Source: Pseudomonadota bacterium
Lineage (GTDB): Bacteria; Pseudomonadota; Gammaproteobacteria; Halothiobacillales; Halothiobacillaceae
Direction of reading: 5' to 3'
NCBI GenBank assembly: GCA_021801265.1
Contig: JAJYYE010000004.1
Location: 186,001 to 250,000, forward strand
DNA length: 64,000 bases
This document shows, one piece after another, positions 32,979 to 36,351 of the stretch. A program made the translations under genes and the position numbers. The notes under the pieces are model-generated. The model saw nothing but the letters and a program-made list of their open reading frames with translations. It ran no database searches and was not told the DNA's origin. Position 1 is the stretch's first letter; each line of letters starts with the position of its first letter.

Positions 32979-33041
32979 ACCATGGCAGCACGCCAAGTTC
33001 TGTCTATACTTCATCAAATTGATTGAATGGAGCCCATACGG

Positions 33042-35150
33042 ATGTCTTTCACCCCCATGCCCAGCCTGAATGGTCCCGATATCGAGGCCAAGCGCGCTGA
33101 AATTCGTCAGTATTTGCACACCACGATGGATACGTTTGAACGACTGTTCACGTTACTCAAAGACGATAGCGTGTTTTATCAACGCCCCGAACGCTTGCGC
33201 CATCCGCATATTTTTTACTTTGGCCACACTGCCGTGTTCTTTGTGAATAAATTGGTGCTGGCAAAATTACTGCCTGAACGCATCAACCCGAAATTTGAGT
33301 CGATTTTTGCCGTGGGGGTTGATGAAATGAGCTGGGATGATCTCAACGACACCCCATACGACTGGCCCACCGCCGAGCAGACCCGTACCTATCGCCAACA
33401 CGTGCGCGCGGCTGTCGATCAGCTGATTCAAACCACCCCGTTCACTTTGCCGATTACCTGGGAATCGCCATTCTGGCCAATTTTGATGGGCATAGAGCAC
33501 GAGCGCATTCACCTTGAAACCTCATCCGTCTTAATTCGGCAAACCCCATTGGCATGGGTCACACCCCAACCCGAGCACTGGCCGGTGACCACGGATGCCG
33601 GTCATGCACCGCAAAACCAATTGATCGAAGTACCTGCCGGCGCCGTCACCCTCGGCAAGGCTGATAACTATTACGGCTGGGATAACGAATATGGTCAGCA
33701 CACAGCGGATATCCCTGCCTTTGCCGCCAGCAAATATTTGGTCAGCAATGCGGAATTTCTAGACTTTGTCCACGAAGGTGGCTATGAAACCGACTCCTTC
33801 TGGAGTGAGGAAGGCTTGGCTTGGCTGCAGTTTAAACAGCCTCAACATCCGGTTTTTTGGATTGCTGATACCGTGCAGCCGCACGGGTACCGGTACCGCA
33901 GCCTTGCCACAGAAATTCCGCTGCCGCTCAATTGGCCGGTCGATGTCAATCAACTGGAAGCCGAGGCGTTTTGCCGTTGGTTGGCGACCAAAACCGGTGA
34001 GCCCATTCGGCTCCCATTTGAAGATGAATGGCGGCGAATTTATGACGTGGCAGGTATTGCCGATCAAGCCGACTGGGGTAATATTCCCCCGGGCAATATC
34101 GCCTTGGGTTATGAGGCCAGTGCTTGCCCGATAAACCGCTTCAAACAAGGCGATTTTTATGATGTGGTGGGTAATGTCTGGCAATGGACCAACACGCCGA
34201 TTTACCCGTTCGAAGGCTTTGCCATACATCCGCTCTACGATGATTTCACCACGCCCACCTTCGATGGCAGACACAATTTAATTAAGGGTGGCTCATTTAT
34301 CAGTACCGGCAATGAAGCGCTGCGCTCGGCACGCTACGCATTTCGGCGGCATTTTTTTCAGCATGCGGGCTTCCGATATGTGCGCAGCCAACACCAAGAG
34401 CGCGTCAACACCACACTCTATGAAACGGACGCACTGGTCAGTCAATATTGCGAATTCGGCTGGGGCGCAGACTATTTTGGGGTAGAAAACTTCGCCGCCC
34501 GCTGCGCCGCGCTGTGCGTGCAAGCGATGGGCAATCGTCCCAAAGCCCGCGCCCTGGATGTGGGTTGCGCGACCGGGCGATCCAGCTTTGAGCTTGCCAC
34601 CGCGTTCGCATCAGTCACCGGCCTGGATTTTTCAGCACGATTTATTCAGGTCGCCGAGCAGATGCGCGAGCAAGGCCGAATTCGCTACACCATCACCACC
34701 GAAGGCGAGCTGGTCAATTTTTGCGAAGCCGCCCTGCCAGAACCGTTGTCCACCACGCCCCATAAAGTGGAATTTTGGCAAGCGGATGCCTGCAATCTCA
34801 AACCCCAATTCACGGGATACGATTTGATCTTTGCCGGCAATTTGATTGATCGGCTCTACGATCCGGCCAAGTTTCTCCATGATGCGGCGCAGCGGCTCAA
34901 TCCCGGCGGATTGCTCATCCTCACCTCGCCCTACACTTGGCTAGAAGCGCATACGCCCAAAGCGAAGTGGCTCGGCGGCATCAAGCGTGATGGCGAGTCT
35001 ATCGGCACATGGGAGGGCTTAACCGCACAGCTTGGCGGCGAATTTCAGTTAATTGAAACCCATGATATCCCGTTTGTCATTCGGGAAACCGAGCGTAAAT
35101 TCCAGCACAGCGTGGCAGAAATGACGATTTGGGAAAAACATCTTGGCTAA
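33042..35150 (+). CDS. ovoA: OvoA: 5-histidylcysteine sulfoxide synthase fused to 4-mercaptohistidine N1-methyltransferase
   Basis: A 702-residue fusion. Residues about 20-170 form a DinB-like domain whose iron ligands are in IEHERIHLETSS (HxxxHxE). About 180-450 is the FGE-type C-type-lectin domain (RLPFEDEWRRIYD, GNVWQWTNTPIYP, GSFISTGNEALRSARYAFRR). About 470-700 is a SAM methyltransferase (ALDVGCATGRSSFELA). It joins oxidised cysteine to His C5 and later methylates the imidazole to make ovothiol A. The extra methyltransferase separates it from EgtB of ergothioneine synthesis. The ATG at 33042 has GGAG upstream. It overlaps ovoB by 8 bases. Confidence 0.9.
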   Translation: MSFTPMPSLNGPDIEAKRAEIRQYLHTTMDTFERLFTLLKDDSVFYQRPERLRHPHIFYFGHTAVFFVNKLVLAKLLPERINPKFESIFAVGVDEMSWDDLNDTPYDWPTAEQTRTYRQHVRAAVDQLIQTTPFTLPITWESPFWPILMGIEHERIHLETSSVLIRQTPLAWVTPQPEHWPVTTDAGHAPQNQLIEVPAGAVTLGKADNYYGWDNEYGQHTADIPAFAASKYLVSNAEFLDFVHEGGYETDSFWSEEGLAWLQFKQPQHPVFWIADTVQPHGYRYRSLATEIPLPLNWPVDVNQLEAEAFCRWLATKTGEPIRLPFEDEWRRIYDVAGIADQADWGNIPPGNIALGYEASACPINRFKQGDFYDVVGNVWQWTNTPIYPFEGFAIHPLYDDFTTPTFDGRHNLIKGGSFISTGNEALRSARYAFRRHFFQHAGFRYVRSQHQERVNTTLYETDALVSQYCEFGWGADYFGVENFAARCAALCVQAMGNRPKARALDVGCATGRSSFELATAFASVTGLDFSARFIQVAEQMREQGRIRYTITTEGELVNFCEAALPEPLSTTPHKVEFWQADACNLKPQFTGYDLIFAGNLIDRLYDPAKFLHDAAQRLNPGGLLILTSPYTWLEAHTPKAKWLGGIKRDGESIGTWEGLTAQLGGEFQLIETHDIPFVIRETERKFQHSVAEMTIWEKHLG

Positions 35151-36351
35151 AACGACCCCACAATCCCCCGTAGATTTTGCGCAGATCATTCCCCGCGAAC
35201 ACACCGGCTGTGTGAAATACGATGCGCGACGCGAACGCTTTGGCCGGGCGGATGTACACCCTCTGTGGGTCGCGGACATGGATTTCGCTGCACCGGATTG
35301 TGTGCAACGCGCACTTGCCGAGCGGGTAGCCCATCCCATTTATGGTTATGCCATTTTCCCGGATGCATTTTTTACCACCATTCAACGCTGGCTCAGCATC
35401 CGTCATGGCTGGGTGGTCGCGCGCGCGGCAATCGTGCCACTACCGGGCATCGTACCCGCCCTGAATCTGTTGGTGCAGGCCTTAAGTCAGATGGGTGACG
35501 GTATTCTGGTACAAACGCCGGTGTATCCGCCCATTCATCAATTACCGCTTAATCACGGCCGAATGCTGCTCGAAAATGCCTTGATCAGCACGCCGCAAGG
35601 CTATGAAATTGATTGGTCCGACTTCACCACCAAAGTCGCACAGGCCCGGCTATTTATCCTGTGCTCGCCGCATAACCCGGTCGGGCGCGTGTGGCGGCGG
35701 GACGAACTCGAGCGCATGGCTACCCTTTGTTTGGCGCATCAGGTCATCATATTGGTCGATGAGGTTCATGCCGATCTCGTCTATGCCCCGCACCAACACC
35801 TGTCCGTTGCCAGTCTTTCAAACGAAATAAGCGCGCAGTGCATCACGCTGAATGCGCCCTCCAAAACATTTAATATCGCGGGCTTAAATACGGCCTACGC
35901 CATTATCGACAACCCGAACCTGCGGGCAACACTTCACACCGCCGTGCAACATACGGGTTTGGGCTCGGGCAATGTGTTCGGCATTACCGCGCTCATTGCC
36001 GCGTATCAACAAGGCGCGCCGTGGCTGAATCAGTTGCTGCACCAGTTGCAACAAAACCGGGATTTTGTGGTGGGTTATTTCACCGAGAATGATTTGGGCA
36101 TTACCGTGGTGCGCCCCGAGGCTACGTTTTTATTGTGGCTCGATTGTCGGCAACTGATGCAGCGGCTTCACTTGTCCGACGATGCCGCGTTAGCCCGATT
36201 TTTTATTGAGCGTGCCGGGTTGGGTTTAAACCCGGGGATCAGTTTCGGCGCACCCGGGAGCGGCTTTATGCGCCTGAATACCGGCTGCCCGCCATCCGTG
36301 CTGCACACGGCATTAGCAAGTTTAAATCACTCAATTAGCGAAGATAATTAA
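35143..36351 (+). CDS. ovoB: PLP-dependent C-S lyase, probable OvoB
   Basis: A 402-residue fold-type I PLP enzyme of the PatB/MalY type. VADMDFAAPDCVQRAL is the family N-terminal signature, CSPHNPVGRVW the PLP-contact region, and NAPSKTFNIAGL holds the Schiff-base lysine. Members cleave C-S bonds of cysteine conjugates; next to ovoA it should split the sulfoxide conjugate to 4-mercaptohistidine. The start is a TTG inside the end of ovoA with GGGAAAA upstream, and no later in-frame Met precedes the conserved domain, so translation is coupled. Its last 17 bases overlap the antisense end of flgL. Cystathionine beta-lyase is the alternative. Confidence 0.85.
   Translation: MAKTTPQSPVDFAQIIPREHTGCVKYDARRERFGRADVHPLWVADMDFAAPDCVQRALAERVAHPIYGYAIFPDAFFTTIQRWLSIRHGWVVARAAIVPLPGIVPALNLLVQALSQMGDGILVQTPVYPPIHQLPLNHGRMLLENALISTPQGYEIDWSDFTTKVAQARLFILCSPHNPVGRVWRRDELERMATLCLAHQVIILVDEVHADLVYAPHQHLSVASLSNEISAQCITLNAPSKTFNIAGLNTAYAIIDNPNLRATLHTAVQHTGLGSGNVFGITALIAAYQQGAPWLNQLLHQLQQNRDFVVGYFTENDLGITVVRPEATFLLWLDCRQLMQRLHLSDDAALARFFIERAGLGLNPGISFGAPGSGFMRLNTGCPPSVLHTALASLNHSISEDN

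Follow-up and report, generated by a model that had tools for sequence, protein, structure and literature searches.

Ovothiol A is formed from histidine, cysteine and SAM in three known steps, according to the part of PMC12631010 available to us. The closest described system is the OvoA/OvoB pathway of the Erwinia tasmaniensis type (PMC9103826 and PMC12631010, both available in part), with which the locus considered here would share the same three activities, an OvoA made of two halves and a PLP lyase. In the literature searched, ovothiol and Halothiobacillus came together in one paper, which in the part available concerns fuel-cell anodes, and no paper joining ovothiol with Nitrosomonas was found; titles and abstract openings of the literature on selection for weak or non-ATG starts yielded nothing on ovoB.

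Our locus lies in a genome of the genus Halothiobacillus (2.66 Mb, 99.9% complete), on a 308 kb contig (C3). By the window we mean the whole stretch of 64,000 nucleotides that was analysed; ovoA and ovoB occupy positions 33042-36351 of it, both on the plus strand (Table 1). The initial annotation had claimed that the pair contains every activity needed for ovothiol A, and this agrees with what we find, each of the three steps known for the pathway (PMC12631010, in the part available) being accounted for by one or other gene. The pair is thus a standard, ordinary two-gene ovothiol A operon, and through it ovothiol genes are located in a genus of sulfur oxidisers. The iron half of OvoA would couple the histidine ring with cysteine to give a sulfoxide, OvoB would split off pyruvate and ammonia to leave 5-thiohistidine, and the C-terminal half of OvoA would methylate a ring nitrogen from SAM, giving ovothiol A. 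Translation of OvoB would be tied to that of OvoA by a start codon placed over the OvoA stop and a ribosome site within the last OvoA codons; given the weak TTG, OvoB would depend largely on ribosomes completing ovoA, and this dependence would hold a lyase of broad specificity at a low level compared with the synthase. In this reading as a whole, that of an ovothiol A operon with overlap-tied, low-level translation of OvoB, we place high confidence.

Table 1. Features of the ovoA-ovoB locus, with positions in the window
Feature	Position	Strand	Evidence or remark
ovoA Shine-Dalgarno, GGAG	33029..33032	+	9 nt 5' of ATG
ovoA, 5-histidylcysteine sulfoxide synthase fused to 4-mercaptohistidine N1-methyltransferase, 702 aa	33042..35150	+	TIGR04344, TIGR04345, 8khq
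ovoB Shine-Dalgarno-like GGGA, weak, in the conserved Trp-Glu codons of OvoA	35131..35134	+	8 nt 5' of TTG
Stop/start overlap, 8 bases, TTGGCTAA	35143..35150	+	ovoA TAA end / ovoB TTG
ovoB, PatB-family PLP-dependent C-S lyase, TTG start, 402 aa	35143..36351	+	TIGR04350, PF00155, solved homologues

The first gene had been described as a full-length OvoA including the methyltransferase half, and the profile matches bear this out: the N-terminal half reaches 696 bits against the sulfoxide synthase equivalog TIGR04344 (cut-off 400) and the C-terminal half 327 bits against the N1-methyltransferase equivalog TIGR04345 (cut-off 170), the latter half also matching OvoM 9bxl (258 bits). The protein contains DinB_2, FGE-sulfatase and methyltransferase domains. 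Its closest solved relative is the bifunctional OvoA 8khq, presumably from Hydrogenimonas and yet from a different phylum, with 1077 bits over nearly the full length (residues 20-706 of the 707-aa reading begun at 33027). The sequence HERIHLE at residues 153-159 fits HX3HXE, which we take to be the iron-binding motif of OvoA, and is invariant across seven aligned genus sequences; in the SAM-type DVGCATGR at 506-513 only residue 507 varies in such an alignment of seven. The enzyme is predicted to act on histidine and cysteine. The EgtB and SenA sulfoxide/selenoxide synthases belong to the same iron enzyme superfamily, but the protein falls well short of both cut-offs (EgtB, 171 bits where 360 are required; SenA, 167 where 420 are), on which ground an ergothioneine or selenoneine assignment was rejected; neither is known to carry the fused OvoA methyltransferase.

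For ovoA, which ends with TAA at 35148-35150, two starts were compared. The ATG at 33042 is the one preceded by GGAG, and an in-frame ATG at 33027 lacks a Shine-Dalgarno sequence. Among six relatives from the genus, three have no start codon 5' of the equivalent of 33042, two resemble the window in having an ATG 15 nt further upstream and carry GTG at the place of 33042, and one has upstream of it only a TTG, just before. A start at 33027 was therefore rejected, for want of a Shine-Dalgarno sequence and because the upstream start is absent in three of the six.

The second gene had been annotated as a PatB-type lyase opening with TTG, which holds on both counts (TTG at 35143-35145): the product scores 517 bits against the PatB C-S lyase model TIGR04350 (cut-off 340), matches PF00155 and carries an SKTFN motif whose lysine, K241, is presumably the one that binds PLP. 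PatB membership is by itself no proof of OvoB function, and no OvoB-specific model appears among the NCBIfam matches listed (best 25 of 62). Among proteins of solved structure, the window lyase comes closest to a putative PLP transferase, PatB-type lyases and MalY. Against 5z0q, which we take to be OvoB of E. tasmaniensis, it scores 244 bits, less than against a number of further PatB-type structures (317 bits at most), so it is no close copy of that enzyme.

We could confirm the reported 8-base overlap between the genes, TTGGCTAA at 35143..35150. In the ovoB frame the TTG is the single ATG, GTG or TTG near the junction; the next in-frame start, a GTG 69 nt downstream, lies within the conserved N-terminus, which would be lost, and was rejected for that reason. 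All nine genus members with ovoA (a named relative, the Halothiobacillus neapolitanus MAG L023, and genus member G003 being treated as one in the counts) have an adjacent, overlapping ovoB, a genetic association that favours its identity as OvoB. Its start lies over the ovoA stop at -8 in four of them (TTG, GTG, TTG, GTG) and, as ATG, at -4 in the other five. The four -8 members form one clade of the OvoA tree, and they retain NTG although the last two OvoA residues vary, so that the TTG is more than a chance opening of the frame.

Translational coupling of ovoB to ovoA is plausible: both -8 and -4 figure as enriched stop/start motifs in the available part of PMC12548453, where -4 is the commonest in bacteria, -8 is lesser yet enriched, and an overlap deeper than -4 is said to lower coupling. 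In these two motifs, and in having its ribosome site in the upstream gene, the junction resembles termination-reinitiation overlaps (PMC6728339 and PMC12548453, as far as available); unlike known overlap coupling, several ovoB lineages conserve TTG or GTG instead of ATG. Local folding around the ovoB start is unremarkable (z +0.85) and so lends no support to coupling; RNA structure at the junction was rejected as a coupling device for the same reason. Counting against a coupled weak start are the ribosome site of the window, which is only GGGA, and the ATG used by the -4 members of the genus.

A survey of ovoA-ovoB adjacency, as the initial annotation had proposed, was made on named ovoA loci, the best 80 of at least 581 confirmed; it revealed a stop/start overlap in 42 of the 80. 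The PatB start is at -4 in 38 of these 80 best loci, at -8 in two (one of them L023, also part of the genus count), and at -11 and -1 in one each; L027 and L092, whose ovoB is cut by a contig end, are counted at -4, and at several loci another possible start lies close by. In eight more the genes are separated or their arrangement is unclear, PatB is missing from 24 that extend 1.5 kb or more downstream, and six lack room for it, so that adjacency is not required among these best 80 loci. Since -4 and -8 overlaps are enriched in bacteria and common at ovoA-ovoB, the overlap in the window is an ordinary one. Nor can its start be called rare, as had been claimed, because the 38 overlaps at -4 in this set of 80 open with TTG in 20 cases, ATG in 12 and GTG in six. 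In the 24 betaproteobacterial -4 loci (assigned by title) the base before TGA is T in 20, G in four and never A, and in the other 14 of the set A in 12 and G in two. Among 14 loci from other genera of the family, nine have ATG at -4, four are separated and one is cut by a contig end. In Dechloromonas, Azonexus and related betaproteobacterial loci (L054, L080, L084, L085, L089, L091 and L094), ovoA stands without PatB within the fetched 12 kb.

The family Nitrosomonadaceae was followed up after this betaproteobacterial pattern of T and G had been seen. The OvoA methyltransferase half is present in 114 of 125 genomes, and 112 of these loci were examined (L153-L264), G096 and G047 being left out; the latter has a TAG within its methyltransferase match. 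In 108 of the 112, ovoB starts at -4, with TTG in 101, GTG in seven and ATG in none; the remaining four comprise one GTG at -8 and three without NTG at -4 or -8. In 98 of the 108, replacing the start base by A would leave the OvoA protein unchanged, and in 89 the codon (TTG 86, GTG 3) is the only ATG, GTG or TTG within 39 nt on either side. Over the last 240 OvoA codons, the start base shows the strongest constraint among 109 fourfold columns, its own included, although C is barred there (CTG not being counted as a start), which alone raises the constraint. It is also the only one of these columns, all drawn from the same sequences and hence the same tree, with one letter in at least 90% (T in 89 and G in 7 of 96); A is absent from it and from just one other.

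As a control, -4 junctions other than that of ovoB were collected with a crude gene finder from 39 stretches of 20 kb in 20 Nitrosomonadaceae genomes, and gave ATG 27, TTG 5, GTG 3 and CTG 4; as CTG lies outside the start codons counted, chance probably accounts for about four per base. Control junctions with no other start within 39 nt had ATG in 12 cases and GTG in one, and comparison of this 12 of 13 with 0 of 89 for ovoB gives 1e-14 in Fisher's test, a value overstated by the non-independence of orthologous ovoB rows. A mere termination preference for T before TGA was rejected, since in this family 125 TGA-ending ORFs of at least 300 aa, taken mechanically from 39 stretches, carry T in 30 cases and A in 49. 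The weak ovoB start is thus not odd for this gene, and relatives keep TTG or GTG steadily enough for it to look selected.

The ribosome site inside OvoA differs between the two lineages. The end of OvoA carries a conserved Trp-Glu, whose Glu codon is GAG in 103 of the 108 Nitrosomonadaceae loci, as against a GAG share of 12-40% at 11 other Glu columns. With GAG after Trp, a GGAG ribosome site is formed within OvoA codons; it lies 8 nt before the ovoB start in 102 of the 108 and 5 nt before it in one, and is missing in five. In the -8 lineage of the window the Glu codon is GAA in four of four, and the site is the weaker GGGA. The weak start thus follows a strong site in Nitrosomonadaceae and a weaker one in the Halothiobacillus lineage of the window.

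What the lyase acts on, and what its weak start means, can each be read in another way. The enzyme could serve chiefly as a general beta-lyase of cysteine or cystathionine, its place beside ovoA being incidental: PatB is a broad family, a cystathionine beta-lyase PatB is among the top solved matches, to which the sequence is as close as to other C-S lyases, and in 24 of the best 80 loci (of at least 581) PatB is missing downstream despite room for it. We consider this improbable, because the ovoB product is the sole PatB above cut-off in the genome (four further matches fall far below) and because the overlap with ovoA is kept in every genus member that has the gene. Moreover, of five matches to PF01053 only one is above cut-off, and this is an O-succinylhomoserine sulfhydrylase of MetZ type (TIGR01325, 551.6 bits, cut-off 510). 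A role of the lyase in cystathionine cleavage was therefore rejected as unlikely; gene content also argues against action on cystathionine only, the outcome that the initial annotation had named beforehand as speaking against OvoB. Homocysteine is probably made directly, with cystathionine bypassed, which would leave histidylcysteine sulfoxide as the natural substrate. No cystathionine beta-synthase above cut-off was found in the genome, a weak test since none of 14 control genomes reached the cut-off either. Homoserine activation is plausible, the best MetX match having 478 bits, below a cut-off of 500 bits that was likewise reached in none of the 14.

As for the start, overlap and TTG may be a matter of genome compaction only, with no regulatory meaning. 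Bacteria are generally enriched in -4 and -8 overlaps (PMC12548453, in the part available), any TGA stop yields an NTGA start unless the preceding base is C, and ATG is used by the -4 members of the genus, by all nine overlapping loci of the sister genera (of 14) and by 12 of the 14 non-betaproteobacterial -4 loci (best 80 of at least 581). This explanation is quite possible, though we would put it below an even chance. It has difficulty with the Nitrosomonadaceae, where ATG is missing from 108 of 108 junctions though mostly synonymous, where no other fourfold column is as uniform as the start base, and where comparably isolated -4 junctions of other genes nearly always use ATG. The weak start may instead be a selected control of dose, of which the -8 TTG or GTG of Halothiobacillus would be a second version, a tentative proposal that we place just short of an even chance. 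Under dose control, several lineages, Nitrosomonadaceae above all, would hold TTG or GTG, reject the mostly synonymous ATG and strengthen the Trp-Glu ribosome site, so that the lyase would be made only as ribosomes finish OvoA and would be scarce enough to spare free cysteine. Why a weak start should be favoured we may only speculate: it may cap a broad-specificity lyase able to attack, and thus destroy, free cysteine. In our opinion the start-codon pattern matters more than the operon, as a weak start is kept in more than 100 species of one family, most of which could reach ATG by a single synonymous change; selection on start-codon strength thus becomes testable by altering one base.

An OvoA-grade match is found in nine of 10 Halothiobacillus genomes, the tenth (G004, 81% complete) having a weak match only (E 7e-4), and the window OvoA is 79% identical to that of L023. 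Family-wide, 23 of 27 genomes have a match above the family cut-off; G023 (99% complete) and G026 (92%), of the same family as the window, have no OvoA above it. In a tree of 101 OvoA rows built by a quick method, Halothiobacillus falls within a Campylobacterota clade (17 rows, SH-aLRT 98), adjoining Hydrogenimonas and a Campylobacterales MAG (97), and other genera of its own family are placed elsewhere; of the rows used, those of Campylobacterota OvoA are thus its closest relatives beyond the genus. With a 43-row subset and groups picked after the first tree was seen, the AU test rejected a single clade for the family (p 5e-5) and, weakly, one joining Halothiobacillus to genus group g2 alone (p 0.025); a Campylobacterota clade that leaves Halothiobacillus out was not rejected (p 0.083). 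The OvoA of the genus was probably exchanged between phyla, and the value of 0.083 fixes no direction. OvoB groups with Campylobacterota as OvoA does (support 93; long branches were flagged among other rows of this tree), which makes joint transfer of the two genes likely.

Five of six genus loci share the same upstream neighbours, from a peptidyl-prolyl isomerase to an acyltransferase; cysS is among them in four, the fifth stretch ending before it, and L142 has none of the neighbours in common. Downstream, flgL/flgK are present in two of the six. None of these seven neighbours was found at the 14 loci from other genera of the family. In the window, flgL on the opposite strand overlaps ovoB tail to tail by 17 bases (36335-36351), and the two genes also lie tail to tail in the relatives L139 and L141.
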